Source: a virus. From it: a stretch of 20,687 nucleotides of DNA. Where the stretch lies: IMG/VR virus record IMGVR_UViG_3300036832_000201, positions 1 to 20,687 of that record. One strand, given 5' to 3'. The position numbers and the translations under genes were made by a program. Below are positions 1,757 through 20,222 of this stretch, piece by piece. The notes under the pieces are model-generated. The model was not told where the DNA came from. It worked only from the letters and a program-made list of their open reading frames with translations, and made no database searches. The stretch's first letter is position 1, and each line of letters begins with the position of its first letter.

Positions 1757-2938
1757 ATGCGAGAAGCCCTCGAGACTTATGACGATGGGCTCCCGGAGTT
1801 GGACCCCATCATCACTTACGAAGTGACTGACTACGGTTGGCGAGGCTTGACCGGCCAAGGCGAGGTCTATGAGGTCAAGAGCAGCAACGGTCATAAGGCG
1901 GAGGTCCCGTCCTCGATCCTGGTGGCCTTTCGCGGTCAGCCCGTCGGTCGTCGCAGGGTGACCAATGATTTGAATGCGAACATCGACGACTATCTGCTTC
2001 ACTTCAATCGCGTGGTTGAGTTGTACAAGAGCAACCGCATCGAAGACGCACTGATGGAAGCTGAGCTCACTCTCCTGGCCGCGCCCACGCTGAGGGCCAA
2101 GTTCAACCGCAGCATGGTGTTGTTGGCTGCTGGTCGTTGGCGTGAGGGTCTCTCCGAGTATTGGGAGTGCGAGCAGAGCAAGCCGTTCATGAGACCTCCG
2201 GTCGAGCAGGCGCTCAAGCTCGGCCTCCGGCCGTGGAGGGGCGAACCGTTGACCGGGAAGCGACTGCTGTTGCTCCACGCTCATGGCTTCGGTGACACGC
2301 TGATGATGCTGCGATACGTCAGGGGCATGAGCAAGACGGTCATGGTGATGCCTCCGGAGCTGACCCGGCTGGCCAGACAGTGCGGACCGGTGGTCGAGGA
2401 GCCGATTGATTGCGACTTCTTCTGTCCGATCCTCCACCTGCTCTACGTGCTGGGCGTCAACCCGGCTGAGGTCTCCGGCGCTCCGTACCTATCCTCCGAG
2501 CTCGCCTCTACAAACGATTGGCATTTGAAGCTGGGCCAGAAGAAGCGAAAGAGGATCGGGCTGGCGTGGTCCATCGGGAAGCCCAGTGACGGAGACTACC
2601 CCAGAGAGATCGTGTTGGAGAGGTTGGTTGAGCGTCTGGGCAATGCGGAGCTTCACAGCGTACAGGTCCAGGGTGAGCAAGAGGCGACGTGGTGCGGGGT
2701 CGCCCACCATCAGCTCACCGACTTCGCGGACTGCGCAGGATTGATGAGGGCCATGGACGAGATCATCAGTGTCGATACGGCGGCGCTCCACTTGGCTGGA
2801 GCGATCGGCCATCCCAAGGTCACTGGTCTACTCTCGTACTGGTCGAGTTGGAGATGGCATGCCAAATGGTACGACAACGTAAAGCTGGTAAGACAGACCT
2901 CTACCGGGGATTGGGCCAGCGCGCTGGCTCAGCTCTGA
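1757..2938 (+). CDS. TPR-glycosyltransferase, GT9/heptosyltransferase-like
   Basis: A 393-residue protein starting at ATG 1757, seven bases after the capsid A stop, with GAGGT at 1748-1752. Residues 1-65 form an extension I cannot place. Residues about 75-140 are helical and TPR-like. Residues 168-393 resemble the GT-B fold of GT9-type enzymes: a glycine loop with LHAHGFGDTLMMLRY (173-187), then IGLAWSIGKPSDGDYPREI (267-285), and the nucleotide-sugar side segment DFADCAGLMRAMDEIISVDTA (322-342) followed by HLAGAIGHP and WRW/WY near the end. Known relatives are bacterial TPR proteins with an ADP-heptose-like transferase domain. Substrate is unknown. Its position between two capsid genes and overlap with a methyltransferase suggest virion or surface glycan modification rather than lipopolysaccharide synthesis. 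It would act in the infected cell cytoplasm. Confidence 0.75.
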   Translation: MREALETYDDGLPELDPIITYEVTDYGWRGLTGQGEVYEVKSSNGHKAEVPSSILVAFRGQPVGRRRVTNDLNANIDDYLLHFNRVVELYKSNRIEDALMEAELTLLAAPTLRAKFNRSMVLLAAGRWREGLSEYWECEQSKPFMRPPVEQALKLGLRPWRGEPLTGKRLLLLHAHGFGDTLMMLRYVRGMSKTVMVMPPELTRLARQCGPVVEEPIDCDFFCPILHLLYVLGVNPAEVSGAPYLSSELASTNDWHLKLGQKKRKRIGLAWSIGKPSDGDYPREIVLERLVERLGNAELHSVQVQGEQEATWCGVAHHQLTDFADCAGLMRAMDEIISVDTAALHLAGAIGHPKVTGLLSYWSSWRWHAKWYDNVKLVRQTSTGDWASALAQL

Positions 2939-3492
2939 AGCGGGTCTCCGTCGTTCCTGCTCAGGTCAGGGCCGGCTTCTTTAGCAAGTATCTCAACCAG
3001 CGCGAGACCTCCATCCTAATCGATCTGGTCAGGAGCGTCTCGCCCAAGGTCATGATTGAGTTTGGGTGCAACGTTGGGATCACCGCCAAGCGGGTGCTGG
3101 AGAACGTGCCCACGCTGGAGCGATACGTCGGTGTCGATGTGGACCCGGATCACGTCCCGACGCTGAGCTGTCAGCTCTCCGAGGTCCCGGAGCGAGCCGG
3201 AGCCTACGCCGCCGATGACCAGAGGTTCTATCTGCTGACCCAACCCTCGCTGGAGCTGGAAGCTGATGACCTCGAGAAGTGTGAGGCCGTGTTCATAGAT
3301 GGAGACCACAGCGACGCTGTCGTGAGCCACGAGAGTATGCTGGCCATGGAGTTGGTTCGTAAGGGTGGGATCATCGTTTGGCACGACTATGGCAATCCGT
3401 CCGTTGAGGTCACCAGAGTGCTCGAGCGGTTCGGAGGCACGTGGCCGATCACGTCCGTTGATGGATCGTGGTTGGCGTTCATGAGGACCTGA
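2866..3492 (+). CDS. Class I SAM methyltransferase (Methyltransf_24-like)
   Basis: About 208 residues from ATG 2866. Class I Rossmann motifs are visible: motif I EFGCNVG (65-71), acidic motif II VGVDVD (88-93), then FIDGDHS (143-149) and GGIIVWHDYGNP (167-178), an arrangement typical of the Methyltransf_24 group, which often sits in sugar or glycan clusters. The start is uncertain. The frame is open back to 2689, but that region lies inside the glycosyltransferase gene. ATG 2854, ATG 2866 or a later non-ATG start near 2911 are all possible, and the conserved part begins only around residue 28. With ATG 2866 the gene overlaps the glycosyltransferase by 73 bases, which implies translational coupling and a shared pathway. 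The acceptor could be the transferred sugar, a protein side chain or a small molecule; the sequence does not decide. Confidence 0.75.
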   Translation: MVRQRKAGKTDLYRGLGQRAGSALKRVSVVPAQVRAGFFSKYLNQRETSILIDLVRSVSPKVMIEFGCNVGITAKRVLENVPTLERYVGVDVDPDHVPTLSCQLSEVPERAGAYAADDQRFYLLTQPSLELEADDLEKCEAVFIDGDHSDAVVSHESMLAMELVRKGGIIVWHDYGNPSVEVTRVLERFGGTWPITSVDGSWLAFMRT

Positions 3493-3506: not shown

Positions 3507-3845
3507 ATGCCCTTCGCTGTTGTAGATGGACCGACCATCCCCGCCGGTCAATCCCTGTCCAACTCGGCTAACTGCTCCGCCGGGTCGATCCTTCGTATCA
3601 CCGTGCCCCAGGAGTACACCGAGGCGAGCCTGACCTTCCAGGTCTCCACCGACGGCAAGTTCTTCAACGATCTGTATGACGCCGAGGGTAATGTGGTCGA
3701 GATCGTGGCCACACCGGACAGCTCGATCGTCCTGAAGGAGGAGTGGGTGAGGTTCATTCCGTTCATCAAGTTCAGGTCGGGCACCAGAGACGCCCCGGTC
3801 GAACAGGCGAAGGATTGCAAGTTCGCGATCGCGCTCCATACTTGA
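3507..3845 (+). CDS. Small beta-rich virion protein, possible capsid decoration
   Basis: A 112-residue protein starting at ATG 3507, with a strong GAGAGGAG at 3491-3498. The sequence reads as alternating beta strands (LRITVP, SLTFQVSTDG, VVEIVATPDSSIVL, RFIPFIKFRSG) with few charged helices and no signal peptide. The segment TFQVSTDGKFFNDLYDAEG followed by FIKFRSGT resembles short uncharacterised proteins I recall from phage head modules. Its location directly before the protease-capsid gene suggests a head decoration or beta-sandwich accessory protein. No catalytic residue pattern is visible. The function is inferred from position only. Confidence 0.6.
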   Translation: MPFAVVDGPTIPAGQSLSNSANCSAGSILRITVPQEYTEASLTFQVSTDGKFFNDLYDAEGNVVEIVATPDSSIVLKEEWVRFIPFIKFRSGTRDAPVEQAKDCKFAIALHT

Positions 3846-3856
3846 GGAGACCTCAG

Positions 3857-5974
3857 ATGCTGATGAAACGCAACAAGCAGGTCCCAGACCCAAGCGAATA
3901 CGACGACGACGAGGAAGACGAGTTTATCAGTGATTGCGTGGATGAGCTCGGCAATGAGGACGTCTGTCAGATGCTGTGGGATGACCGGGCCGCCAGCGGG
4001 GTCAAGTACAAGACCCACGCCGAGAAGGTCAGTGGGATGGAGTTCATCTTGTCCGATGAGACGCCGGACAGATTAGACGATGTGATCATGTCCGATGGAT
4101 GGGAGCTCAAGGCGTTCAAGAAGAACCCCATCGCTCTGTTCGGACACAACAGCACTTTCCCGATCGGCAAATGGTCCAACGTGCGGGTCGAGAATAAGCA
4201 GCTCCGGGGTCACCTCGAGCTCGCTCCAGAAGGCACTAGCCAGAGGATCGATGAGATCAGGAGACTGATCGACGCGGACATCCTCAAGGCAGTGTCGGTC
4301 GGTTTCAAGCCGATCGAGGTGAAGGATAGAGACGGCTCCGAGTGGGGCAGTGTCTACGTCAAGTGCGAGCTAGTGGAGACCAGTGTGGTTTCGGTTCCTG
4401 CGAACCCGAACGCACTGGCTGTGGCCAAGAGCTTGAACATCTCACCTGAGACAATCGATCTAGTCTTCGCCGGGCAAGGCAATGGAGACCGGATCAAGCG
4501 TCGAGGGTTCAACGGCGGGCACGCCAAATCAAATAGCAACGGAAGGGTCAGACAAATGTCTACCTTGGCTCAACGTATCACGACCCTGGAGGAGCAGATC
4601 AACTCCAAGCGTGATAGTCTTCAAGATCACGTCGACAAGATGGACGACACCAACGTCAGCAACGCTGATATGGAGATCGCCCAGAAGCTCAAGGAGGACC
4701 TCATTCGCCTCGAGCAAACTCACGGCATGCTCGTTGATAGCGAGAAGCTGCTGGGCAAGACCACCACTGGAAACGGGGAGCATCAGCCCAATCCTCGCGG
4801 GCGATCGCTGGTCCCGTCTAACGGAGAGCGGGTGGCTGCTCCCGCGGTGATCGTCAATCGTACCAAGGATAGCCTCGATCTGGTGGAGCTGGTGGTCAGG
4901 GCAGGCACCCTGGCTTACTTCTCCAAGGGTTGGGGTCGTACCATCGAGGACACCCGCAACAAGATCGCAGAGCGTTATCCGGAGTATAAGGATGATGCGG
5001 CCAAGCTGATCGCTGAGCTGGTGCTTCGTTCGGCAACGGCGCCGGCCATGACCTCGGTCACGGGTTGGGCTCAGGAGCTGGTCCAACAGACCTACGCTGC
5101 CCTGATGCCGCTGCTGATGCCCAAGGCGATCCTCACTCGTCTCGCGACGAAAGGGTTGGCCCTGAGCTTTGGGACCGCCGGCAAGATCGTCATTCCTACT
5201 CGCTCTCGCACGCCCAGCCTCGCTGGTTCGTTCGTGGGTGAGGGTCTGGCTATCCCGGTCCGTCAGGGTGCGTTCACCAGCCAGACGCTCACTCCGAAGA
5301 AGATGGCAGTGATCACCACGTGGACCCGGGAGATGGACGAGCACTCCATCCCGGCGATCGAGGGTCTCCTGAGGGAAGCCATCCAGCAGGACACCACGGT
5401 GGCAGTCGATACGGTGCTGATCGATGCTAACCCGGCGACCACGATCCGGCCCGCCGGTCTGCTCAACGGTGTGGCCTCCACGACCCCGACCGCCGGTGGT
5501 GGTATCGCGGGCCTGGTCGGAGACATCTCTGCTCTGATCAATGCCATCTCCACCAGCACTTACGGCAACGTTCGCAATTTGGTCTGGCTCGCCAACCAGA
5601 CCGATATGCTGCGTGCCTCGCTGCTCAACGTGAACGGCATCTTCCCGTTCCGCGATGAGATCAGGGGCGGGAGCCTCAACGGCATCCCGATCATCGATAG
5701 TGCCACCATCGCAGCCAAGACCTTGATCCTGGTCGACGCTGCTGACTTCGTGGTGGTTGGTGGCGACGCTCCTCGCATGGAGATGAGCGATCAGGCCACC
5801 CTGCACATGGAGGATACCAACCCGCAAGAGCTGGTCGCCTCTCCGAGCACTGTGGCGGCTCCTCAGCGCTCTCTGTTCCAGACCGACAGCCTCGCGCTTC
5901 GCATGGTGCTCCCGCTGAATTGGGTGCAGCGTCGCGCAGGTACGGTGGCCTGGACCCAGAACGTCACTTGGTAG
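3857..5974 (+). CDS. Prohead protease-scaffold-major capsid fusion (capsid B)
   Basis: A 705-residue polyprotein starting at ATG 3857, with GAGGAG at 3844-3849. Residues 1-58 are an acidic leader. Residues 59-195 are an HK97-type (S78/U35) prohead protease: His97 in FGHNS, Ser147 in KAVSVGF, and the ELVETSVVSVPANPNA segment (171-186), which carries the likely acidic member. Residues 236-300 form a charged coiled coil like a delta/scaffold domain. Residues about 335-705 are the HK97-fold capsid, starting around LVELVVRAG, with APAMTSVTGWAQEL (395-408), IPVRQ and the terminal RSLFQTDSLALRM block. In many HK97-like phages protease and capsid are separate genes; here one frame holds both, so protease stoichiometry would be 1:1 unless the internal start near 4556 is used. 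The fusion would have to cut itself free during maturation. The gene ends at TAG 5972-5974. Confidence 0.9.
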   Translation: MLMKRNKQVPDPSEYDDDEEDEFISDCVDELGNEDVCQMLWDDRAASGVKYKTHAEKVSGMEFILSDETPDRLDDVIMSDGWELKAFKKNPIALFGHNSTFPIGKWSNVRVENKQLRGHLELAPEGTSQRIDEIRRLIDADILKAVSVGFKPIEVKDRDGSEWGSVYVKCELVETSVVSVPANPNALAVAKSLNISPETIDLVFAGQGNGDRIKRRGFNGGHAKSNSNGRVRQMSTLAQRITTLEEQINSKRDSLQDHVDKMDDTNVSNADMEIAQKLKEDLIRLEQTHGMLVDSEKLLGKTTTGNGEHQPNPRGRSLVPSNGERVAAPAVIVNRTKDSLDLVELVVRAGTLAYFSKGWGRTIEDTRNKIAERYPEYKDDAAKLIAELVLRSATAPAMTSVTGWAQELVQQTYAALMPLLMPKAILTRLATKGLALSFGTAGKIVIPTRSRTPSLAGSFVGEGLAIPVRQGAFTSQTLTPKKMAVITTWTREMDEHSIPAIEGLLREAIQQDTTVAVDTVLIDANPATTIRPAGLLNGVASTTPTAGGGIAGLVGDISALINAISTSTYGNVRNLVWLANQTDMLRASLLNVNGIFPFRDEIRGGSLNGIPIIDSATIAAKTLILVDAADFVVVGGDAPRMEMSDQATLHMEDTNPQELVASPSTVAAPQRSLFQTDSLALRMVLPLNWVQRRAGTVAWTQNVTW
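4541..4558 (+). promoter_or_regulatory. Internal ribosome binding site and ATG in protease-capsid gene
   Basis: GGAAGGG at 4541-4547 stands nine bases before an in-frame ATG at 4556 (Met234). The Met falls exactly between the protease domain plus its Asn/Gly-rich linker and the coiled-coil scaffold. Initiation here would give a 472-residue scaffold-capsid protein without protease, restoring the usual excess of capsid over protease. Nested starts in phage head genes have precedent (lambda C/Nu3). The motif is seen; its use is inferred. Confidence 0.5.
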
Positions 5975-6413: not shown

Positions 6414-7862
6414 ATGGTTGGATTGGTCGCTAGGTTCAGGGCAGTCATGAAAGCGGTCGAGGGCAGCTTCCGCCCTGGACCGTACTATCTGCCCATCACC
6501 GGGGGATGGCTTCCTGCTGGTGCGGCGGCCAATTGGTGGCAGCAAGGTTACGACCCTATCTACGCTTCCACCTGTTCGGCGATGGTCGAGGCTTGCGTCT
6601 CGGCTTATGCGCAAACTGTCGCTATGTGCCCGGGTGATCACTGGCGAATGAATGACAAGGGTGGGCGGGACAGAGTTAAGACCTCTGCTCTCGCCCGCGC
6701 CCTCCGCCATCCCAACGACTACCAATCGATCAGCGACTTTCTGTTGAATATGGTCAGGAGCCTGTACCTGACTGGCAACGCCTATGCTCTGGCTCTGCGT
6801 AACAATCGTTACGAGACCGAAGAGCTTCACATCATGAACCCGGACATGAGCTATCCTCGCATAGCTGAGACTGGGGACGTGTTCTATTGGCTCGGCGGCA
6901 ATGACGTTGTGAGCAAGAGGTTCGGCGAGGAGTACCTGGTCGTGCCCATGCGCGACGTGCTCCACATCAGGCTCCATACGGAGCGTAAGCGATACCCGGT
7001 CCCGCTGGTGGGTGAGAGCCCGATCGTGGCCACCTATGGGGACCTCGCGGTCACTTCGGCCATCTCCAAGCAACAGGCCGCGTTCTACATGAACGAGGCC
7101 AGACCATCGGCAGTGCTCTCTACCGACCTCGTGCTGGATAAGGATCAGGTCCAAGCTCTGCGCGATCGCTGGAACGAGCAGGTCAAGGGTCTCAATCAGG
7201 GTGGTACTCCGATCCTCACTGCCGGCTTGAAGGTCCAGCCCTGGGCCACCGCAGGCAAGGACGCAGCCACGGCGGATATCCTCAAGCTCTCCAATGAGCA
7301 GATCGCCTTGGCCTTCCGGGTGCCCCTCCAAATCCTCGGCATCGGTGGTGCTCCATACGGCAGCGCTGAGTTGCTGATGCAGAGCTGGATCGCCAGCGGC
7401 CTTGGGTTCTGCCTCAACCACATTGAAGAGGCGTTCGGCCTTCACTTCAATCTCAAGGGTCAGCCTGATGAGTATGTAGAGTTCGATACCGCCGCGCTGC
7501 TTCGCTCTGCATTCAAGGATCGCATCGACGCTCTGGCCAAGGGAGTGATCGGTGGCATCCTAGCGCCCAATGAAGCTCGTAACTCCGAGGGTTACGATAA
7601 GGTGCCGTTCGGAGATGAGCCCAGGGTTCAGCAGCAGGTCGTTCCGTTGAGCGCTGCCGAAAAAATTCCTCCGGCTCCTCCGGCTCCTCCGGCTCCCGGT
7701 CCCCAAGACGCCAAGCCGCCGACGGACGGGAAGCCTCCGCCAACCGATGGCGAGAAGCCAAAGCCACCCGAGAAGGGTAACGATGATGACATCCAACGGG
7801 AAGTCAGAAACCTACTTAGGCTCACCGAGCGAGTTGGACGACGGCGGAAATATTCTGCTTGA
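6414..7862 (+). CDS. Portal protein, HK97 family
   Basis: A 482-residue protein that would form the dodecameric DNA gate at the head vertex. The N-terminal half reads as an HK97-type portal: ACVSAYAQTVA, then LARALRHPNDYQSISDFLLNMV and LTGNAYALALRN (about 94-130), a VLHIRLHTE segment, and the stem/clip part with SKQQAAFYMNEARPSAVL, ATADILKLSNEQIALAFRVP (286-304) and the GSAELLMQSWI region. From about residue 418 to 460 it carries a Pro-rich linker, encoded partly by three perfect 9-base repeats, ending in an acidic then basic tail. The last 80 bases are also read in another frame by the collagen-like gene. The start at 6414 has only a weak ribosome binding site; ATG 6447 is an alternative. 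Confidence 0.9.
   Translation: MVGLVARFRAVMKAVEGSFRPGPYYLPITGGWLPAGAAANWWQQGYDPIYASTCSAMVEACVSAYAQTVAMCPGDHWRMNDKGGRDRVKTSALARALRHPNDYQSISDFLLNMVRSLYLTGNAYALALRNNRYETEELHIMNPDMSYPRIAETGDVFYWLGGNDVVSKRFGEEYLVVPMRDVLHIRLHTERKRYPVPLVGESPIVATYGDLAVTSAISKQQAAFYMNEARPSAVLSTDLVLDKDQVQALRDRWNEQVKGLNQGGTPILTAGLKVQPWATAGKDAATADILKLSNEQIALAFRVPLQILGIGGAPYGSAELLMQSWIASGLGFCLNHIEEAFGLHFNLKGQPDEYVEFDTAALLRSAFKDRIDALAKGVIGGILAPNEARNSEGYDKVPFGDEPRVQQQVVPLSAAEKIPPAPPAPPAPGPQDAKPPTDGKPPPTDGEKPKPPEKGNDDDIQREVRNLLRLTERVGRRRKYSA
7668..7694 (+). repeat. Three 9-base tandem repeats in portal tail
   Basis: Three perfect copies of CCTCCGGCT at 7668-7676, 7677-7685 and 7686-7694 encode the PPAPPAPPAP linker of the portal C terminus. 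The unit keeps frame, so slippage would change linker length without breaking the gene. Confidence 0.85.
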
Positions 7863-9180
7863 TGCGTGGCGGATCGCACTTGCGGAGACGCTGGACGACC
7901 AGAAGGTGGAGTGGGAGCGCCACGTCAAGTTGATGGAGGCCCAGTCCGAGGCTGTCATCGCCCGCACGATGGCTCGCTTGGTCTCGTTGGACGAGCAGAT
8001 CAGGGTCACTCTGGCCGGGTTCGATGAGCAGATCAGGATCAGGTTGGCTGCACTGAAGGATGGTCCTCAGGGTGAGATCGGTGAGCAAGGAGAACGAGGT
8101 GAACGAGGAGAACGAGGTGAGCCAGGTGAGATCGGTGCCAAGGGAGAGCGCGGTGACCCCGGTGAGCGAGGCGAGCAAGGAGAGCGTGGTGACCCAGGTG
8201 ACAAGGGCGAGCGCGGTGACCCGGGTGAGCGAGGAGCTCAAGGCGAGGCGGGCGATAGAGGCGACAAGGGCGAAGCAGGCGTACCCGGAGAGAAGGGCGA
8301 CGCAGGACCTCAGGGCGAGCGCGGTGACCAGGGAGAACCCGGAGAGGATGGGGTCAACGGCGAGCGTGGTGAGCAGGGTGAGAAGGGCGAGCGAGGTGAT
8401 GTCGGGCCAGCTGGCGATCGTGGTCCCGAAGGGCCCGAGGGACAACCGGGGAAACAGGGCGATCCTGGTCCCCGCGGTGAGCAAGGTGAACGTGGCTTCA
8501 CAGGAGTTGGAGGCGAGAATGGCCAAAAAGGTGAAAAAGGCGAGCAAGGTGAAAAGGGCGACAGCGGCTCTCAAGGTGAGCGCGGTGAAAAGGGCGAACC
8601 CGGTGAGATCGGAGCAACGGGCAAGGATGGTGCAACGGGGCCGACAGGGCTCCTGAGGGAAGTCAAAGCGTACGTGGAGAATGCGGTCCACTATCGCAGC
8701 GAGCTGGTCACCCATCAGGGCGGGACCTATCAAGCTAAATGCGATACGGCTCGCACTCCTCCGCACGAGGACTGGGTGTGTTTGGCAGCTCCAGGTCGCA
8801 ACGCATCCAGTCCTCAGGTTCGAGGCACTTGGCAGGAGAACCCAGACCAGCCCTACAGGCACCTCAACATGGTTGCGCTCAACGGCTCCGGCTTCATCGC
8901 CAGACGCGACGATCCAGGACCGTGTCCCGGAGAGGGCTGGCAATTGATCGCGTCGTGCGGCAAGCCTGGCAAGCCAGGGCTGAAGGGAGAGCGCGGAGAT
9001 CGAGGAGAGCCTGGAGAGAAGGGCGAGCGTGGTCTACCCGGCCGTGACGCTGCTCAGCTCAAGGGCTTCCGGGTGGACAAGAAGAACTACACGCTGACCC
9101 CGATCATGTCGAACGGTGAGCTGGAGCCCATCAAGTTGCGTGATTACTTCGAGCAGTACAACGAGGAAAGCAATGGCTGA
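7783..9180 (+). CDS. Collagen-like phage fibre protein
   Basis: A 465-residue protein. ATG 7783 (or 7786) is chosen because GAAGGG at 7772-7777 precedes it; the frame opens earlier, but inside the portal gene. Residues 36-92 are a helical segment, probably coiled coil. Residues 94-288 are 65 uninterrupted Gly-X-Y triplets rich in Glu, Lys, Arg and Asp. Residues 289-392 are a globular domain with HYRSELVTHQGGTYQAKCDTAR and four cysteines (320, 333, 381, 392), reminiscent of carbohydrate-binding modules. Residues 393-422 are ten more Gly-X-Y triplets, followed by a short beta-like C-terminal domain. Bacterial and phage collagen-like proteins form trimeric rods stabilised by charge pairs instead of hydroxyproline. 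Its place right after the portal suggests a virion surface or neck fibre. The overlap with the portal and with the next gene (ATGGCTGA) implies coupling. Confidence 0.85.
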   Translation: MMTSNGKSETYLGSPSELDDGGNILLDAWRIALAETLDDQKVEWERHVKLMEAQSEAVIARTMARLVSLDEQIRVTLAGFDEQIRIRLAALKDGPQGEIGEQGERGERGERGEPGEIGAKGERGDPGERGEQGERGDPGDKGERGDPGERGAQGEAGDRGDKGEAGVPGEKGDAGPQGERGDQGEPGEDGVNGERGEQGEKGERGDVGPAGDRGPEGPEGQPGKQGDPGPRGEQGERGFTGVGGENGQKGEKGEQGEKGDSGSQGERGEKGEPGEIGATGKDGATGPTGLLREVKAYVENAVHYRSELVTHQGGTYQAKCDTARTPPHEDWVCLAAPGRNASSPQVRGTWQENPDQPYRHLNMVALNGSGFIARRDDPGPCPGEGWQLIASCGKPGKPGLKGERGDRGEPGEKGERGLPGRDAAQLKGFRVDKKNYTLTPIMSNGELEPIKLRDYFEQYNEESNG

Positions 9181-11514: not shown

Positions 11515-13104
11515 ATGCCGATCAGTTTTGCCAACATTCCTGCCAACATCAAGGTCCCGCTGTATTGGGTCGAAGTCGATCCTAGCATGGCCGGCCTCGC
11601 AACGATCAACCTCAAGGCATTGATCGTAGGGACCATGACCACGGATGGTGACGCACCGCCTGACGTTCCGATCCCGATCGGGAGCCAGGCCCAGGCGGAC
11701 ATGCACTTCGGTCCTGGGTCCGAGCTGTCTCGGATGTTCCAGGCGTACTACAACAACAACTTCGCCAACGAGGTATGGGGTCTCCCGCTCTCAGAACCTC
11801 CGGCGTCTTCGGCCGCCACTGGCGACATCGTGGTCACCACTCCTCCGACGGAGGCTGGTACGATCCACCTCTACATCGCAGGCACTCACGTTCCGATTAA
11901 CATCATGACGACCGATACTGCAGACACGATCGCTACGGCGATCGCAGACGCCATCAACACGTTCACTGATGTGATCGGCAATCCGGCGCTCCCGGTGACT
12001 GCCGTAGCGGCGACCGGTACGGTGACGCTGACCTCCCTGTTCAAGGGCGTCAACGGCAACGAGATCACGGTCCAGCTCAACTACTACGGTTCTATCGGGT
12101 CGGAGATGACCCCGGTGGGTCTGGTCATGACCCTGCCGGCCAACGGCATTCTCGCCGGTGGGGTGGGTACGCCAGACATGGCTACGGCGATCGCGAACAT
12201 CCAGAAGAAGGACTTCGAGTTCGTGGCGATGCCGTACACGGATACCAACTCACTGTTCGATTGGGATCAGGAGTACGGATTTACTGACCAAGGTCGTTGG
12301 GGTTGGCAGCGTCAGCAGTTCGGCCACGTGTTCAGCGCCAAGCGCGGGACCTATGCCGCACTGATCACGTTTGGTGACACGCTGAACAGCGGCGTAGAGA
12401 GCATCATGGCATTTGAGACGACCACTCCGTCTCCGATGTTCGAGTGCTGTGCGGCTTATACGGCCAAGGCTCAGCGTGCTCTGATCAATGATCCTGCTCG
12501 CCCCTTGCAGACCCTCGCTCTGAACAAGATCAAGGGTTGCCCCTTGCAGGATCGCTTCGACTTCCCGGAGCTGAACAGTCTGGCCTCCAACGGCCTGGCC
12601 ATCCAGGAGGTCGGCAGCGACGATCAGCCCATGATCCTTCGGGAGCAGACCACCTATCAGCTCAACCTCTATGGGATGGGCGATGATGCCTACGAGCTCG
12701 TGACCACGTTGGCCACGCTCGCCAAGTTGCTCCGCAATCAGAAGCATGCCATCACCAGCAAATTCCCTCGCTCCAAGCTGGCGGACGACGGGACCAAGTT
12801 CGGACCTGGCCAAGCGATCGTAACGCCAGGCATTATCAAGGCCGAGCTGGTCAACGAGTACCAGATGGACATGTGGAATGGGTTGGTCGAGAACCTCAAG
12901 GCGTTCAAGGCCAACCTGATCGTGGAGCGCGATCCCAACGATCCTAACCGGGTCAATGTGCTCTACCCGCCTGACCTGATCAACCAACTCCGTATCTTTG
13001 CCGTGTTGGCGCAGTTTCGCCTACAGTATGACAGAGGGATCGACACGGAGATTATTGGCGCGGCGCCACCTCCGTTCCAGGCTTCTTCGGGCGCTCCGGG
13101 CTGA
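11515..13104 (+). CDS. Contractile tail sheath protein (Mu gpL-like)
   Basis: A 529-residue protein from ATG 11515, with GAGAGGAG at 11499-11506. The N terminus (ISFANIPANIKVPLYWVEVDPSMAG) is characteristic of Mu gpL-type sheaths. A beta-rich insertion follows at about residues 95-215. The conserved core has FEFVAMPYTDTNSL, RGTYAALITFGDTLNS, and a C-terminal handshake region with RVNVLYPPDLINQLRIFAVLAQFRL. The sheath polymerises around the tube and contracts to drive injection; its presence shows that the phage is a myovirus-type particle. The tube gene follows after 32 bases with its own AGGAG. Confidence 0.92.
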   Translation: MPISFANIPANIKVPLYWVEVDPSMAGLATINLKALIVGTMTTDGDAPPDVPIPIGSQAQADMHFGPGSELSRMFQAYYNNNFANEVWGLPLSEPPASSAATGDIVVTTPPTEAGTIHLYIAGTHVPINIMTTDTADTIATAIADAINTFTDVIGNPALPVTAVAATGTVTLTSLFKGVNGNEITVQLNYYGSIGSEMTPVGLVMTLPANGILAGGVGTPDMATAIANIQKKDFEFVAMPYTDTNSLFDWDQEYGFTDQGRWGWQRQQFGHVFSAKRGTYAALITFGDTLNSGVESIMAFETTTPSPMFECCAAYTAKAQRALINDPARPLQTLALNKIKGCPLQDRFDFPELNSLASNGLAIQEVGSDDQPMILREQTTYQLNLYGMGDDAYELVTTLATLAKLLRNQKHAITSKFPRSKLADDGTKFGPGQAIVTPGIIKAELVNEYQMDMWNGLVENLKAFKANLIVERDPNDPNRVNVLYPPDLINQLRIFAVLAQFRLQYDRGIDTEIIGAAPPPFQASSGAPG

Positions 13105-13136: not shown

Positions 13137-13505
13137 ATGGCACAGCGGTTCGCTGGGATCGCGTTTCTAACCGTGGATGGCACGCAGCTGGCCCTTCGCG
13201 GAAATTTCACCGTAAGTCCAAGCGCCGTTGAGCGCACCATGATCGCCGGTCAAGACGGCGTGCATGGCTATCAAGAATTGCCTCGAGTGCCATACATCGA
13301 GGGAGACCTGTCCACTATCCCAGGTCTCCTCCTCGAGGACCTCGAGGCAGAGACGGACGTGACCGTGATCGCTCAGTTGGCGAACGGCATGCAATACACG
13401 CTGACTGGTGGAACGTGCAAGGCCGGCTTCGAGAACAACACTCGAGACGGTCAGGTGCGGGTCCGCTGGGAGGGCCTGGCTTGCCAGGAGATTTCTATCA
13501 GATAG
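13137..13505 (+). CDS. Tail tube protein (Mu gpM-like)
   Basis: A 122-residue protein from ATG 13137, with GAGAGGAG at 13120-13127. The start FLTVDGTQLALRGNFTVSP followed by the ERTMIAGQDGVHGYQE segment, a PYIEGDLSTIPG turn and a C-terminal strand with VRVRWEGLACQEI fits Mu-type tail tube proteins, which stack as hexameric rings inside the sheath. Its length is the usual one for the family and its place directly after the sheath is typical. The gene ends at TAG 13503-13505. Confidence 0.88.
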   Translation: MAQRFAGIAFLTVDGTQLALRGNFTVSPSAVERTMIAGQDGVHGYQELPRVPYIEGDLSTIPGLLLEDLEAETDVTVIAQLANGMQYTLTGGTCKAGFENNTRDGQVRVRWEGLACQEISIR

Positions 13506-13512
13506 GTGACGC

Positions 13513-14022
13513 ATGGCAGAACCACAGATGAGAGGAAATGGCGGGACCCGTATGAGGGAGGGCTTTGTTGTGCCCGAGCCTCAGCTCCAGGCCCCGCTCT
13601 CGACCGAGCCGCAGTCGGCGGCTCCTCAAGAACCGCTGCCCTCACAAGTCAAGCCTGAGGCTCCCGCTCCCTCGCCGATACTGGATGAGACGGAGCGGAT
13701 CAGGAAGGACATCAAGGAGAGTGCGGAGGATTGGCCGCTCACGGTCCAACTACTCTATCGTCCGGTCAAGAACGACAGGGGCGAGGAGGTCTGGAGCCTG
13801 ACCTTCAGGGAGCCTCGGGCGGCCGAGATCAATCGGATCGGCAATCCGACCCGTATGCTCTGGGATGGTGAGATCATCATTGAAGAGCGCAAGATGACCT
13901 ACATCATGGGTGCGCTCTGCGGCATCCTCCCGCCTCTGCTCGAGGCGATGGACCCGCGTGACTGGAACAGTTGTGCGTATCGTTTGCGTAAATTTTTTTT
14001 ACCCGATCTGCGGGCGTGGTGA
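13513..14022 (+). CDS. Tail assembly chaperone (Mu gp41-like), short form
   Basis: A 169-residue protein from ATG 13513. Residues 1-55 are a low-complexity Pro/Gln/Glu-rich extension. The conserved part starts near SAEDWPLTVQLLYRP, then LTFREPRAAEINRIGNPTRM, a helical GALCGILPPLLEAM and DPRDWNSCAYRLRKFF. It matches the pattern of E/gp41-type tail assembly chaperones: reading of strand and helix, then an (M/L)DPRDW motif. It is translated just before the tape measure, which it would coat during tail assembly. A slippery T TTT TTA sequence lies seven codons before its stop. Confidence 0.8.
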   Translation: MAEPQMRGNGGTRMREGFVVPEPQLQAPLSTEPQSAAPQEPLPSQVKPEAPAPSPILDETERIRKDIKESAEDWPLTVQLLYRPVKNDRGEEVWSLTFREPRAAEINRIGNPTRMLWDGEIIIEERKMTYIMGALCGILPPLLEAMDPRDWNSCAYRLRKFFLPDLRAW

Positions 14023-14186
14023 CTACGGTCATCGACGACAGTATGATCATCGACTGCTATCGACTGGCTAGTTACTATCACCTCGATCCTCGCATGTTCC
14101 TCGAGATGTCCATCAGTGAGGTCCAGCTCCACTTGAGCAGGACGGCTCAGCTTGAGAGGACGCGCGCCAAGGAGAGCGGAGACTGA
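13513..14186 (+). CDS. Frameshifted tail assembly chaperone, long form
   Basis: A -1 shift on the heptamer at 13995-14001 joins 163 residues of the short chaperone to 61 residues read from 14001 in the other frame, ending at TGA 14184-14186, for a product of 224 residues. The extension is open throughout and contains a family-like segment, IIDCYRLASYYHLDPRMF and LEMSISEVQLHLSR, resembling the downstream part of gpG-T and gp41-gp42 type pairs. Its stop overlaps the tape-measure ATG as TGATG. Without frameshifting 163 bases between the chaperone stop and the tape measure would be noncoding, unlike the rest of the window. The +1 frame closes about 70 bases downstream, so -1 is the open option. 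Confidence 0.8.
13995..14001 (+). promoter_or_regulatory. Slippery site T TTT TTA for -1 frameshift
   Basis: Within a run of eight T at 13993-14000, the zero-frame codons TTT (13996-13998) and TTA (13999-14001), preceded by T 13995, make the heptamer T TTT TTA. Slipping back one base keeps perfect TTT pairing in the P site and re-pairs the A site at TTT. This heptamer is the same as the HIV-1 gag-pol slip site. Its location seven codons before the chaperone stop is the classic place for tail chaperone frameshifting. Confidence 0.75.
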
Positions 14187-16507
14187 TGCCCACTGAGCTA
14201 CAAGAGCTACAGCTTCGCGTCTCGTTGATCAACGAGGCGTCCGAGGGTGTGGCCAAGCTCAAGGAGCAGCTCGGTCAAATCTCTGGGACCTCCGGCAAGC
14301 GGGCTATGGACAAGCTCAAGGAGGAGCAGGCCGAGCTGGCGAAGCAAGTCAAGGAGCTGGGTGAGCTCGTTACCGGTGGTAGCGAGGCCATGCTGGGTTA
14401 CATCGGCAAGTTCGGCGCTGCCGGTATAGCCATGTCCGGGTTCGCCACGACCCTCTTGGTCGGGCTCGGGAGCCTGAAGGAGTGGTCGGACAGGGTCGTT
14501 GACTTGACCAATAAGGCCAAGGTCATCGGCATGCACCCGGCCGAACTGAAGAGCATCATCGAGCAGTATGAGCGGCTTGGTGTCTCTGCCGGAGTTGTCG
14601 AGCAGAGCATGGCTGGTTTCTCCACCACGATCGCGGAGATCAACCGGATCGGTGGCCACAAGCGGATGGAGATGGTCGAGGCCGCTGGTCAGTTCGGCGA
14701 GGTGATGGAGAAGGGCATCGAGCGTGTGGAGGCCCAGACCGATTGGGCCAGCAAGCTCGACCAAGTTTTGATCCAGGCCCAGAACGTCTACGACAACAGG
14801 CTCGCTGAGACCAAGGGCAACATCTCCGACGCGACCAAGAGTGAGAACGACTTCCTGAAGCTGTGGGGTCTCGATCCCTCGGTCAAGGTGCTCAAGGGCA
14901 TCCAGAGGGTCTCGGAGGAAGAGAAGAAGCGACAAGAGGAGCGATCCAGATTAACGGCCGACTATAAGAAGCAGGTCACCGTTCTCAGTCAAGAGCTTGA
15001 GAGTTGGGGTGACGACATCAAGACCAGCATGTTGGCCGCGGACGGGACGATCGTCACCGGTCTGAAGATGTCCATCGAGTTGGTCAAGCTGCTCCACGAG
15101 GAGTGGAATAAGCCGTGGATGGGTGCGGCAGGTCGTACGCTGAGGTCCCTGATCACCAGAGGCGTGGGTCTGACGGCGATCGATCTGGTCAAGGCCGCGT
15201 TCGGTTTCCACAATGAGATCACCGATGATCCTGGCACCACATTCAGCCAGAGGTTCGGCCAGTCCCAAGCTCCCCACGCTCAGACCGACTTTGCGGAGAA
15301 GCTCAAGAAGCTAGGATTGGAGCGGTCGCCTCAGAACGATTACTCGCAGCCGGCTCACTTGCTCTCCGGCCCAGTGGGTGAGACCACCGGGAGCGATCAA
15401 ATCCCCGGCATCGGTAAGGGCTGGGAGTGGATGCGAAGGTCGGAGAACATAGAGGACCGCAGGCAAATCGATGAGACCATGGTCCAGGGTGATGAGTACA
15501 TCAAGTACATCCAGGCCAACACCGCGGAGACTAAGAGGCTGAATGATAACTTCCGGCTGCTCGATCGTGGCGAGGCTGTCCTGAGAGGTCTCGGAGGTCT
15601 CCCTGGGTTCGAGAGTGGGAAGAACGTCACAGGTGGAACGTATGGAGGAGGTGGGGCGAGTGGCAGTTGGGCCGCGCCATCACCGTCTGCTCCGAACGGC
15701 AGTTCAGTTGGTGGCGGAGACGGCAAAGGTGGTGGCGATAGCAATCCCTCCTCGGGGAAGGGTGGTGGATCGAGCTCTGAGCCAAGCTCCAGTCCGGTAG
15801 AGCAGTCCAACCCGGCCAATGCTCAGACCTCCGTTCCGCAGAGGTTCGTTTCCGATCTAACGGCCATGACCTTGGCCGGCGCCAAGCCGCACAACATCCA
15901 CGCCTACATGCTCCAGCACGGGATCAATCTCAGTGAGGCCACTTGCGGTCAGTTCATGTCCTCCGTGGTCAAGGAGCATGGCGGCATTCCACCGAAGAAC
16001 CCAGCTGTCGCTTCGAACTGGAATAAGTTCGGTGGTGCGGAAGGTGCCGGATACTCCAATGATCCGAATGCGATCAACATCGCGGTCAAGCAGGGCGCCA
16101 GCGTAGGGTCCACCGGCTCTCATGTCACGTCGGCAGTTCCGATCACGGATGCCAGTGGAAAGATCACAGGGTACAGAGGCGTTGGTGTCAATCAAGGCAA
16201 GCAGGGTGTGGCCGGTGTGGGTCAGTACGGCCGGGACGTCATCTCCAGCATCCCGTTGCGGATAGGCACGAGGCCGGGTGAGTATCAAATTCGCCATCAG
16301 ATCGTAACGCCAGCTGCCGATACGGCTAGCGACGATCGTAAGACCATTGATCAGGCTTCTACGGACAAGGCGGTCAGGACCGTGAAGGTGGAGACCGGAG
16401 GCAAGCTGACCGCGGACGTGAATGCCCCGGCTGGTGCGGAGGTCAAGGTCGAGGGTGGCGGCGCGTTCAGCAAGACCGAAACAAATAGAACGATGCCGTT
16501 GCAATAA
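14186..16507 (+). CDS. Tape-measure protein 1 with NlpC/P60-like domain
   Basis: A 773-residue protein from ATG 14186 in a TGATG overlap. Residues 1-305 are helical, with a hydrophobic segment at about 70-97 and long charged helices, as in tape-measure proteins that set tail length and leave with the DNA. Residues 480-550 are a Gly/Ser/Pro-rich linker. Residues 570-700 look like a papain-like NlpC/P60 or CHAP-type domain: Cys587 in EATCGQF and His646 in GSTGSHVTS are the likely catalytic pair, suggesting peptidoglycan cutting during entry. Residues 727-773 (TVKVETGGKLTADV) match the tail of the next gene. The first 305 residues align without a gap to the next protein. It stops at TAA overlapping the next ATG. 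Confidence 0.8.
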   Translation: MPTELQELQLRVSLINEASEGVAKLKEQLGQISGTSGKRAMDKLKEEQAELAKQVKELGELVTGGSEAMLGYIGKFGAAGIAMSGFATTLLVGLGSLKEWSDRVVDLTNKAKVIGMHPAELKSIIEQYERLGVSAGVVEQSMAGFSTTIAEINRIGGHKRMEMVEAAGQFGEVMEKGIERVEAQTDWASKLDQVLIQAQNVYDNRLAETKGNISDATKSENDFLKLWGLDPSVKVLKGIQRVSEEEKKRQEERSRLTADYKKQVTVLSQELESWGDDIKTSMLAADGTIVTGLKMSIELVKLLHEEWNKPWMGAAGRTLRSLITRGVGLTAIDLVKAAFGFHNEITDDPGTTFSQRFGQSQAPHAQTDFAEKLKKLGLERSPQNDYSQPAHLLSGPVGETTGSDQIPGIGKGWEWMRRSENIEDRRQIDETMVQGDEYIKYIQANTAETKRLNDNFRLLDRGEAVLRGLGGLPGFESGKNVTGGTYGGGGASGSWAAPSPSAPNGSSVGGGDGKGGGDSNPSSGKGGGSSSEPSSSPVEQSNPANAQTSVPQRFVSDLTAMTLAGAKPHNIHAYMLQHGINLSEATCGQFMSSVVKEHGGIPPKNPAVASNWNKFGGAEGAGYSNDPNAINIAVKQGASVGSTGSHVTSAVPITDASGKITGYRGVGVNQGKQGVAGVGQYGRDVISSIPLRIGTRPGEYQIRHQIVTPAADTASDDRKTIDQASTDKAVRTVKVETGGKLTADVNAPAGAEVKVEGGGAFSKTETNRTMPLQ

Positions 16508-18945
16508 TGCCAACCGAGATTGAAGAACTAAGGCTAGTCATTACGCTAACCGACAACGCGTCGGGAGCGATAGCCGCGATCCGCCAGCAGTACGCCGGTT
16601 TGAGCAGCGGTGCGACCCAGGGTCACGTTGAGAGGTTCAAGCGAAGCCACAACGAGCTGGCCAAACAGATCAAGGAGATGCAAGAGCTGGTGCTTGGCGG
16701 CGAGAAGGCCATGCTCGGCTTCGTCGGCAAGTTCGGTATAGCAGGGGCAGCGGTCGCCGCATTCGGAACGGTACTGGCCGAGGGCATCAAGGGTCTCAAT
16801 GAGTTCTCCACCAAGCTGGTGGAGCTCAACAACAAGGCCAAGGTGATCGGTGTCCACCCGGCCGTGCTTAAGAGTATTGAGGAGCAGCTGGCCCAGATCG
16901 GAGTTGGAGCTGATCAGGCCGATGCTAACGTAGCGAGGTTCAACGAAGCCTATGCGAAGATGGGCCGAGTGGGCAGCGCCGAGCACTTCAAGCTCGTCCA
17001 GGATGCCGGCCACTACGGTCGCGAGATGGAGGCTGGTATCCAGACCATCCTCCACCAGCGGACGGAGGTCGCGAGGATCAACGAGGTTCTGGCCCAGGCC
17101 CAGAACGTCTACAACAACAGGCTGAAGGAGACCAATGGCAACATCGCCGATGCGACCGACTTCACCAAGCAGTTCATGGCCGCATGGGGGATCGATCCGA
17201 CATTCGCGTTGATCCAGCATCTGCATGAGGTCAGCGACGAGGAGAAGAAGGTGATCACGGAGCGGTCTAAGGCGACCGCCGAATACTACAAGCAGACCAC
17301 TATTCTGAAGCAGGAGTGGGATGACTGGATGGACGACATCAAGACCTCCGCGCTGGCGCCGGATGGTTTGATCGTTCAAGGTCTCCAGGAGATCATCCGG
17401 CTGGTCAAGTTCCTGCACAACGTCAACGAACCTCTGAAGCCTGGTCAGCGCTCGAAGAGTTGGGATGACATCGGAGAGGCTTGGCACAAGGCTAGCGAGA
17501 CTGACAAGCAGAAGGAGGAGGAGCGGAAGAAGCGACAAGAGACCCCGCTGACTGAGAATGCCCTGAAGAAGTTTGGTCAAAAGAGCTTGGCTGATCAGCT
17601 TGGGCTCGGTAACATCCCGGACGTTGAGGGCAAGCCTGGTCAGCAACCGGCGGTTGGAGGTGCTGCCCATCTGCTCTCGTCGATGGGAGACACCACCGAA
17701 AACCACACCGATATCATGCGGGACAACACCGGTCAGCTCAAGAGGCTGAACGATTATCTCGCAGCGGAGCAACTCGGTATCAGACCAGGAGAAGCTGGTG
17801 GGCCAGGTGGCGGCGGTGGGATAGCTACTCAGGGCACTGTGCCCCAGAGCATGGGACCCACACCGACGACCACAGAGGCTCCGTCGGAGGCTGGGCCCTC
17901 CTCCTCCACCACCTCCACCGCGGCTCCCACGACCGCGCCCAGTCAGGCTTCCACGGTGCCCACGTCCGTCTCCACTGGGCCGGCGACCTCCGGGCCGGCT
18001 CCGTCAAGACCGGGTGGTGGCTCAGCTCCTCTGAACGCACCCGACCTTGATACGTTCACCAAGGGCACGAGGGCCAGGGGAGCGATCGGTGCTTCAACTC
18101 CAGAGGCGACTGCTGCCAGCATGGCCCAAAAGTTCGGAGAGGGGACCGGTGGTGGTGGCACCGACGCAGTTCAGGGCGAAGGAGCCGCAGCCCTGTTGGC
18201 CAGGAAGCGAGCTGGGTTTAAGGAGGAGCTCAAGGACCCGGAGACCCGCAAACTGCTCGGCGCCGTGATCAGCTCCGAGAACGTGGGAGCTGGCTCGGCC
18301 GTCGCAGAGAGCTTGATGAACCGTACCGAGTTGGTCAACGCCTCTCGCGCCAGGAGAGGATTGAAGCCACTCTCGCTCAAGCAGATGATGGGCACCTACG
18401 GTCATAGCTTCTATGGTCCGATCAAGCACGGATACATCGGAGAACACCTCCAGAAGATGAACGACCCGAAGTACGCTGCGGAGATGAATAAGCGGATCGA
18501 TGCAGCGCTAGGTGGTGCCAATACGATCAAGAGCTACACGGATCAGGGCAGCAAGGGTGATCCTAACTACGAGGCTGGTGGGATCGGCGTCAATATCAAC
18601 AAGGAGCGGTTCAACGACTGGGGTTATCCTGGCTCGGTGGAGTGGAGGAAGGCGAGACAAGCTGAGCTCGAGAAGGCCGACGCGACCGCCGACCCAAAGA
18701 TGGCCGCAGCCGCAGCAGCTGATCGAGCTACGGTCGATCGCAAGTCCATCAAGACCGTGAAGGTGGATGCGACCGGCAGTGTGAAGGTGAATATCGCTGA
18801 CGCTGGAGGCGACGCTACGCTAGGCAGTCAGAAGCTGTTCAAATCGACCACGCCAGAGCGCAGCACCCAGATGGTAGCGGCGGAGAGTGGACCGAAGGCT
18901 GACGCCCCGGCCACGTTCAAGGAGAGATTTGAGGCAGCCAACTGA
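16507..18945 (+). CDS. Tape-measure paralog 2 with lysozyme/SleB-like domain
   Basis: An 812-residue protein from ATG 16507 in a TAATG overlap. Residues 1-305 align to tape-measure 1 with no gaps and about 45% identity by hand count, including KAKVIG at 111-115, QAQNVY at 197-202 and DDIKTS at 276-281. A Pro/Ser/Thr/Gly-rich linker covers about 425-515. The C-terminal enzyme-like domain differs from its neighbour: LLGAVISSENVGAGSAVAESLMNRT (583-607), where Glu591 is the candidate acid, then SLKQMM, GHSFYGPIKHGYIG and a GGIGVNINKERFNDWG segment, resembling lysozyme-superfamily or SleB-type wall hydrolases. The final TVKVDATGSVKVNI tail (750-763) is again shared. So the two genes share both ends but carry different wall-active modules. 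Both are likely tail-tube internal proteins. Confidence 0.8.
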   Translation: MPTEIEELRLVITLTDNASGAIAAIRQQYAGLSSGATQGHVERFKRSHNELAKQIKEMQELVLGGEKAMLGFVGKFGIAGAAVAAFGTVLAEGIKGLNEFSTKLVELNNKAKVIGVHPAVLKSIEEQLAQIGVGADQADANVARFNEAYAKMGRVGSAEHFKLVQDAGHYGREMEAGIQTILHQRTEVARINEVLAQAQNVYNNRLKETNGNIADATDFTKQFMAAWGIDPTFALIQHLHEVSDEEKKVITERSKATAEYYKQTTILKQEWDDWMDDIKTSALAPDGLIVQGLQEIIRLVKFLHNVNEPLKPGQRSKSWDDIGEAWHKASETDKQKEEERKKRQETPLTENALKKFGQKSLADQLGLGNIPDVEGKPGQQPAVGGAAHLLSSMGDTTENHTDIMRDNTGQLKRLNDYLAAEQLGIRPGEAGGPGGGGGIATQGTVPQSMGPTPTTTEAPSEAGPSSSTTSTAAPTTAPSQASTVPTSVSTGPATSGPAPSRPGGGSAPLNAPDLDTFTKGTRARGAIGASTPEATAASMAQKFGEGTGGGGTDAVQGEGAAALLARKRAGFKEELKDPETRKLLGAVISSENVGAGSAVAESLMNRTELVNASRARRGLKPLSLKQMMGTYGHSFYGPIKHGYIGEHLQKMNDPKYAAEMNKRIDAALGGANTIKSYTDQGSKGDPNYEAGGIGVNINKERFNDWGYPGSVEWRKARQAELEKADATADPKMAAAAAADRATVDRKSIKTVKVDATGSVKVNIADAGGDATLGSQKLFKSTTPERSTQMVAAESGPKADAPATFKERFEAAN

Positions 18946-19553
18946 TGACTACGATTAAGGACATCCACCTTCCGTTCAGAGACGATTGGGTCACTGCGTC
19001 ATTTCGCAGCGCTCCGTTCTTCTGTGAGGCGAATAGTAGGGACAGCGGTCGCAGGACTGTGGAGCATGAGTTTCCCAAGAAGGAGCTTCCGTACGCAGAG
19101 GACATGGGCAGGAGAGCGAAGCAGTTCACGGTCAGAGCGTACTGCATCACCCACCCCTTCACTATGGAGGGTCCTTTCCTGGACGGGCTGTACAACGTGG
19201 ATTATCGGATCACCAGAGACGCGTTGATCACAGCGCTTGAGCAACCAGGTCCAGGCACGCTGATCTTCTCCACGCGGCCGTCCGAGAACGTTGTGGTCAC
19301 CAGATATCGATTGACTGAGGAGGAGAAGTTCGGAGGTTACTGCACGTTCGATATTGAGTTCGCGGAGTTCGGTCTGCCGCCTCAGTACCTCACGCCCTCG
19401 CAGAACACGAACACCGTGCTCAATTCTGCCGCCGATACCTTGAGAGCTCAGACCCAGGCGGGCATGGCCGGGCCTGACCCACCGGCGGAGAACGCTACGT
19501 TCCAAGACAGGTTCGGAAATTGGGGCAATCAAAAGAGTATGTTGGTGAGATAG
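18945..19553 (+). CDS. gpN-like DNA-circularisation protein, N-terminal part
   Basis: A 202-residue protein from ATG 18945, overlapping the previous stop (TGATG). The start with LPFRDDWVTASFRSAPFFCEAN and RRTVEHEFPKKELPYAEDMGR is the signature of the DNA_circ_N domain of Mu gpN-type proteins, needed for tail/baseplate assembly and once linked to DNA circularisation. The family is usually 400 residues or more; here translation ends at TAG 19551-19553 after the N-terminal domain and a short linker. The next gene starts on the following base in the same frame and holds what looks like the missing C-terminal part. Confidence 0.8.
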   Translation: MTTIKDIHLPFRDDWVTASFRSAPFFCEANSRDSGRRTVEHEFPKKELPYAEDMGRRAKQFTVRAYCITHPFTMEGPFLDGLYNVDYRITRDALITALEQPGPGTLIFSTRPSENVVVTRYRLTEEEKFGGYCTFDIEFAEFGLPPQYLTPSQNTNTVLNSAADTLRAQTQAGMAGPDPPAENATFQDRFGNWGNQKSMLVR

Positions 19554-20222
19554 ATGGAAAAGCCGGACGCAATAGAAGCCGAGGGCATCGTGATCAGATT
19601 GCTGGCCAATCTGCTCGGGTGCATCCAGGACAAGCAGGACGCAGGCATCCAAGCCAAGGTGGTGATCGGATGGGTGGCGGCCAATGCGCGGATGCTGCTC
19701 TACTATGATCAGATCGGAGCACCGCTGGACTTGTGCTTCGACCTCGTGCGACAGGCCGGGTGCGACCTCCCGCACATGGATGAGGTCCGCATCCTGCTGG
19801 ACGTGGAGACCCCGCAGACGCTCGGGGCAACCATGATCAGGGACCGCTCCATCAACTTCGCCCTGTGCCAAGAGGGCAAGATCATCTCCAACATGACGTT
19901 CGTCAGCAGGCAGGACGTCGACGATCTGATCTACGCGATCCAGGCGCCGTTCAACAAGGCCGAGGAGATCGCCGCCGACACCATGGACCCGATGGACTAT
20001 CAGGGCATCATTGAGCTTCGTGCAGCGATCGTCAACTACCTCGTTCAGACCAGCCGGCCCCTGCCCAGCATGTTGCAGTATCAATTCGCTAGACCTCTCC
20101 CGTCCCTGGTCATCTCCCATCGGCTCTATGGAGACGCAAGTCGATACGATGAGATACGAGCCGAGAACAAGATCGTCCATCCTGCGTTCTGCCCGGCCAC
20201 CGGCCAGGCGCTCTCGGCGTGA
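19554..20222 (+). CDS. gpN-like protein, C-terminal part
   Basis: A 222-residue protein whose ATG 19554 follows directly on the TAG of the previous gene, in the same reading frame. The C-terminal third, with RAAIVNYLVQTSRPLPSMLQY and LPSLVISHRLYGDASRYDEI ending in HPAFCPATGQALSA, is the conserved end of Mu gpN-type proteins (typically RPLP, then LAHRLYGD and a HP-x-F-x-P end). Reading through the TAG would give a 425-residue protein of normal family length. A GGTGAG at 19544-19549 gives it its own possible ribosome binding site, so independent translation and assembly of two subunits is equally possible. Three-quarters of the N-terminal half is helical. Confidence 0.75.
   Translation: MEKPDAIEAEGIVIRLLANLLGCIQDKQDAGIQAKVVIGWVAANARMLLYYDQIGAPLDLCFDLVRQAGCDLPHMDEVRILLDVETPQTLGATMIRDRSINFALCQEGKIISNMTFVSRQDVDDLIYAIQAPFNKAEEIAADTMDPMDYQGIIELRAAIVNYLVQTSRPLPSMLQYQFARPLPSLVISHRLYGDASRYDEIRAENKIVHPAFCPATGQALSA

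Follow-up and report, generated by a model that had tools for sequence, protein, structure and literature searches.

The window, which is the whole of a 20,687-base IMG/VR virus record from an uncultivated soil bacteriophage, encodes two tandem tape-measure paralogs, TMP-A and TMP-B (Table 1), one carrying a predicted peptide-cutting domain and the other a predicted glycan-cutting domain. It is fairly probable that the two genes result from the duplication of a two-enzyme tape measure and the partition of its enzymes between the copies; the two proteins would then probably assemble together into a mixed bundle. A wider generalisation, that this phage lineage builds a hetero-oligomeric tape measure of two co-translated paralogs, with a peptide slot and a glycan slot that each freely swap unrelated enzymes of the same class, is put forward at about even chances.

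Table 1. Features of the tape-measure locus, with positions counted from the first base of the window.
Feature	Position	Strand	Basis
Tail sheath	11515..13104	+	phrog_165 E 1e-152
Tail tube	13137..13505	+	Tail_tube E 4.6e-30
Tail assembly chaperone (gpE/41-type)	13513..14022	+	Phage_TAC_7 E 6.5e-6; phrog_166 E 1e-7
Probable -1 frameshift extension of chaperone	13990..14187	+	T-run AAATTTTTTTT, then frame open to TMP-A start
TMP-A, tape-measure copy bearing the papain-type, peptide-cutting domain	14186..16507	+	ORF, 773 aa; weak profile matches; lies between chaperone and gpN; member of the A clade of 16
Ruler half of A, residues 1-306	14186..15103	+	47% identity to B, gapless; 305-308 aa in all A-clade copies
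Predicted papain-fold (NlpC/P60-CHAP type) domain of A, residues 549-706	15830..16303	+	Alignment, AlphaFold2 model, iterated profile
Cys587 of A	15944-15946	+	Catalytic-type residue, 25-member alignment
His646 of A	16121-16123	+	Catalytic-type residue, 25-member alignment
Shared C-terminal tail in A	16328..16504	+	Profile from 31 single-copy tails, domain E 2.8e-16
TAATG junction, A stop / B start, one-base overlap	16505..16509	+	No clear Shine-Dalgarno ahead of B
TMP-B, tape-measure paralog with glycan-cutting SleB-type domain	16507..18945	+	ORF, 812 aa; B clade of 16
Ruler half of B, residues 1-306	16507..17424	+	BLASTP to A; ruler lengths
Predicted SleB-type lytic transglycosylase domain of B, residues 560-735	18184..18711	+	22-member alignment; model; VIA
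Glu591 of B	18277-18279	+	Invariant in 22-member alignment
Shared C-terminal tail in B	18688..18903	+	Profile from 31 single-copy tails, domain E 1.1e-12
gpN-type DNA circularisation/hub protein, 2 ORFs	18945..20222	+	DNA_circ_N E 2.9e-20; phrog_184 matches both halves
gpN, N half	18945-19553	+	phrog_184
gpN, C half	19554-20222	+	phrog_184

The pair is located in a Mu-like contractile-tail operon (sheath, tube, chaperone, TMP-A, TMP-B and a gpN-type hub in two pieces), both genes lying 3' of the tail tube and tail chaperone and 5' of the hub genes. TMP-A weakly matched the tape-measure profiles phrog_2013 (lytic tail protein, E 3.5e-5), phrog_2276 (0.0028) and TMP_3 (5.7e-4, under the gathering score), and TMP-B, for which no direct match was found among the tape-measure profiles, is linked to them by its paralogy to TMP-A. 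Weak profile matches (phrog_2013 and TMP_3) together with the operon position thus identify both products as predicted tape measures. Relatives were gathered via the conserved sheath, which introduces no bias to the tape measure, as well as by direct tape-measure searches. The paired arrangement, which the preliminary description had proposed to look for in related phages, was found in 17 distinct virus contigs, in all of which the chaperone and hub genes flank two tape-measure ORFs, some of them truncated at the contig edge; about 30 relatives have a single tape measure.

Several other features of the region were observed. The T-run near the 3' end of the chaperone gene and the open -1 frame that follows it are a probable programmed frameshift, and the gap of ~160 bases from chaperone to tape measure is similar in relatives. 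The gpN-type hub/circularisation protein is split into two ORFs in most relatives as well. A collagen-like GxY-repeat protein of 477 aa is encoded directly 3' of the portal gene (7747-9180). The window also has a second, standalone major-capsid paralog, which is 36% identical to the capsid half of a protease-capsid fusion (628-1749 and 3743-5974), and of two ORFs between the capsid paralogs one reads as a glycosyltransferase (1709-2938) and the other as a SAM methyltransferase (2689-3492). The capsid paralog is present in every paired phage with the region covered (the window and contigs L002, L006, L012, L026, L035, L047 and L058) and in only two (L055 and L075) of roughly a dozen single-tape-measure phages with the region covered.

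The ruler halves of A and B, for which a gapless alignment of about 45% identity over the first ~305 residues had been counted by hand, are identical by BLASTP at 142 of 304 positions (47%; 68% similar; no gaps; E 3e-89), far above chance. Both ORFs are present and intact, as first described, and different modules are indeed found between the ruler and the C-terminal tail, a papain-type Cys/His domain in A and a SleB-type domain with Glu591 in B. The tail itself, previously noticed as a common TVKV-type end, is weak in the direct A-B comparison (E 0.28) and is found in both proteins (A 709-768 and B 728-799) by the profile of the tails of 31 single-copy relatives; it is common to all tape measures of the group. 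The ruler measures 303-308 aa in A- and B-clade copies with full rulers (an upstream start of L048_B being discounted) and is equal within pairs; since this length is nearly constant across pairs, there are no coupled A-B length changes to read. The A stop and the B start overlap by 1-11 nt in 15 of the 17 paired contigs and lie 3 bases apart in the other two, and no clear ribosome site (Shine-Dalgarno) was found ahead of B at the junction, an arrangement that fits coupled translation.

In the tree of ruler halves, the A copies form one clade (n=16; 100/99) and the B copies another (n=16; 95/96), the two being joined (92/95) and adjoining a group of phages with one tape measure. This topology shows one old duplication, which preceded the spread of the paired lineage. 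Both copies of L058 fall outside the A and B clades; when placed singly, neither joins either clade, although their branches are very long, and the L058 pair is likely to be a separate, second duplication. All paired phages are metagenomic, with no cultured phage among them. No paired prophage was found in ~590 genomes of Bradyrhizobium and its family, the host group of the relatives, where the only prophage loci were ~30% identical to the rulers and the annotated ones were single-copy; tblastn of A and B against named phage genomes gave no match at E 1e-5.

AlphaFold2 models cover the C-terminal halves of A and B only. For the first protein, an NlpC/P60-like Cys/His domain had been suggested, and Cys587 and His646 are invariant in all 25 rows of the alignment of A-domain relatives. 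The model of this domain (pLDDT 66, the core better) aligned best by VIA with the NlpC/P60 enzyme 4xcm (Z 6.7, rmsd 3.6 over 110 residues), and most of the VIA rows listed were papain-like, NlpC/P60 and CHAP enzymes among them. A sequence search of the PDB with the A-domain profile gave nothing meaningful, and an iterated profile joined the A domain to Pfam-called CHAP domains in other tape measures. Since Foldseek by itself found nothing under E 0.001 with the model, the assignment to the papain-type NlpC/P60-CHAP fold, a moderate match, is made from VIA and the motif and profile links. The A domain is a predicted cutter of peptidoglycan peptide/amide bonds.

The proposal of a lysozyme/SleB-like domain with Glu591 in the second protein is borne out by the model, the core of which is mostly above pLDDT 90. 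VIA aligned it with the SleB catalytic domains 4fet (Z 11.0, over 114 of 122 residues) and 4f55 (Z 10.7), the only entries listed, and Glu591, Glu601 and Asn605 are invariant in 22/22 rows of the alignment of B-domain relatives. Pfam and NCBIfam gave no match to the B domain, which is too divergent, and a PDB sequence search with the B-domain profile gave nothing meaningful. By its model, the B domain has the SleB lytic-transglycosylase fold, in which Glu591 would be the counterpart of the known SleB catalytic Glu, and is predicted to cut glycans. It thus has the fold and the invariant Glu in common with the spore-cortex lytic transglycosylase SleB (4fet, 4f55), but is only 11-12% identical to it, has no Pfam match and is fused to a tape measure. 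Both C-terminal domains are modelled with hydrolase-type folds, the match of A being moderate. Of the two wall-cutting activities originally proposed, what stands is a peptide-cutter-type domain in A and a glycan-cutter-type domain in B, by fold and conserved residues, while the enzymatic activity of both is a prediction.

The enzymes found at the two positions vary among the paired phages. The A slot may be occupied by papain-type CHAP/TIGR02594 domains, M15 peptidases or an LDT-like family (L007, L035, L047 and L048), and the B slot by SleB, SLT-like or Phage_lysozyme2 domains or a family labelled P5x (L006, L007 and L008). Both domains are visible in 13 phages, where every B is glycan-class only and every A has a peptide-class domain, and the ruler trees indicate at least nine enzyme replacements in A and three in B, with none across bond class, although neither the phages nor the replacements count as independent, the phages being related. 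For example, L007, L008 and L012 have rulers that are 88-93% identical and carry three different A enzymes. Enzymes are often swapped in each slot, apparently only within a bond class.

This partition applies to those enzyme families that were identifiable; for the LDT-like and P5x families, as for the L026_A and L058_A domains, the class was read by eye from motifs. Profiles of the LDT-like and P5x families gave no meaningful match to PDB sequences, which leaves their class unsupported by sequence search, and Pfam run on single C-terminal modules left both families unnamed; with an M15b profile nothing meaningful was found among PDB sequences, and with an SLT-type profile lysozyme C came up at E 0.34. 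P5x is a label of convenience and makes no claim that the family is related to P5, the lytic protein of phi6, which has been reported to be an endopeptidase (PMC5380687).

Most single tape measures carry one cutter of each class in a single protein, 21 of them by profile, and none carries two of the same class. Such pairs include CHAP and SleB (L017), glucosaminidase and CHAP (L009), SLT and CHAP (L011), glucosaminidase and M15 (L060), CHAP and SLT (L051), and GH24 and CHAP (L088). The exceptions are the single-copy L044 and L075, in which only a glycan cutter is visible, and L058_A, which seems to carry a glycan cutter, a peptide cutter and an alpha/beta hydrolase. The A copies of both L026 (13087-16302) and L058 (12666-16205) have an M15-like domain and an apparent alpha/beta hydrolase of the serine esterase or cutinase type, which might be a third wall or envelope enzyme on the tape measure. 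The second domain of the L029, L040, L052 and L064 tape measures resembles a double-psi beta-barrel (RlpA/3D type) and might be yet another glycan cutter.

The ancestor would have had one tape measure, most likely with both a glycan and a peptide cutter, like the single-copy sisters and CwlP of SPbeta (PMC5380687), and after tandem duplication of its gene each copy would have retained the ruler half, the C-terminal tail and one enzyme class, peptide/amide in A and glycan in B. Made together from overlapping genes, A and B most likely co-assemble in one tail tube as a mixed bundle of fixed length, with the C-terminal tail probably docking in the hub, and when the tail contracts the two enzymes would arrive at the host wall at the same time and cleave bonds of both types. 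Such a bundle is the simplest outcome for two copies that are produced together and have both retained the ruler and the tail. The trimeric tape measure of phage JBD30 is known to be anchored by its C-terminus (PMC11445458).

The dN/dS ratio is mostly 0.01-0.24 in the ruler, enzyme and tail of both copies, well under 1, and the enzyme domains give the smallest values (0.03-0.06 with unsaturated dS; ratios from some L002 comparisons with saturated dS were disregarded), which indicates that A and B are both under purifying selection in all three parts. Disabling mutations in one copy, which had been raised as an outcome that would speak against two working proteins, are absent from the relatives, and the catalytic residues are invariant. 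These data bear on a rather unlikely reading, in which one paralog is the ruler and the other, with its tape-measure fold retained, is a passenger in the tail lumen or hub and mainly delivers the second enzyme. Duplication can free one copy from measuring, and the constraints on the copies do differ, the ruler half of B evolving slower than that of A in most comparisons. However, a passenger would be expected to shorten, while in every pair with full rulers both copies have an entire ruler half, equally long in the two, and both rulers are under purifying selection.

Another reading is that some virions use only A and others only B as tape measure, so that there would be two kinds of particle, each with its own wall cutter. 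Each protein has everything that a tape measure needs, and the second capsid paralog of these phages makes two particle types conceivable, but such alternative tails are improbable, and less likely than a mixed bundle, because the genes overlap without a separate start signal or switch, equal ruler lengths would yield equal tails, and the single-copy relatives put both enzymes in one protein, suggesting a joint need. Tandem duplicates are often transient, yet a redundant or decaying copy without function is very hard to credit for a pair that 16 contigs of a single, deeply diverged clade have kept, with low dN/dS, invariant catalytic residues and no stops; an assembly chimera of two phages, a concern with metagenomic records, is the least credible reading, as 17 contigs, drawn from several samples, have the same junction and the trees of A and B are concordant in grouping.

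In neighbour order and gene families the locus resembles the tail operon of Mu-like myophages (sheath L, tube M, chaperone 41, tape measure 42, N), the closest named sheath being that of Paraburkholderia phage IPK (44% identical), but gpN is split in the group of the window, and Mu-like phages as a rule have one tape measure at this position. The capsid paralogs gp23 and gp24 of T4 are likewise a duplicated and specialised virion structural gene, although they concern the capsid and carry no enzymes. Tape measures, the proteins that set the length of the tail, are generally treated as homo-oligomers with zero, one or rarely two lytic domains. While examples with one such domain or with two have been described, no precedent for a duplicated tape measure with enzymes split by bond class was found in the open-access literature searched; papers on 'two tape measure' that were considered as precedent dealt with other subjects (two phages compared, or two chaperones). 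Also newly seen are the origin of the pair from one old duplication and the exchange of enzymes in each slot, apparently only within bond class. A duplicated gene with both rulers kept and the enzymes repeatedly replaced, apparently within class, suggests that wall penetration needs a peptide and a glycan cutter together, and A and B as distinguishable subunits would make the stoichiometry of the tape measure directly testable.

Other tape measures with a peptidoglycan-hydrolase domain are those of TM4, with a single lytic domain (PMC1796659), and phiCbK, with a CHAP domain (PMC3556154); unlike the pair described here, each has one gene and one enzyme class. CwlP/YomI of the Bacillus subtilis prophage SPbeta, a large protein of the virion that combines a muramidase with a DD-endopeptidase (PMC5380687), resembles the pair in having a glycan and a peptide cutter on a tail protein, and its pairing matches that of the single-copy L017, L009, L011 and L051. 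In CwlP/YomI, as in L017, both enzymes are in one protein, whereas the window splits them over two paralogs, each with its own ruler and tail.
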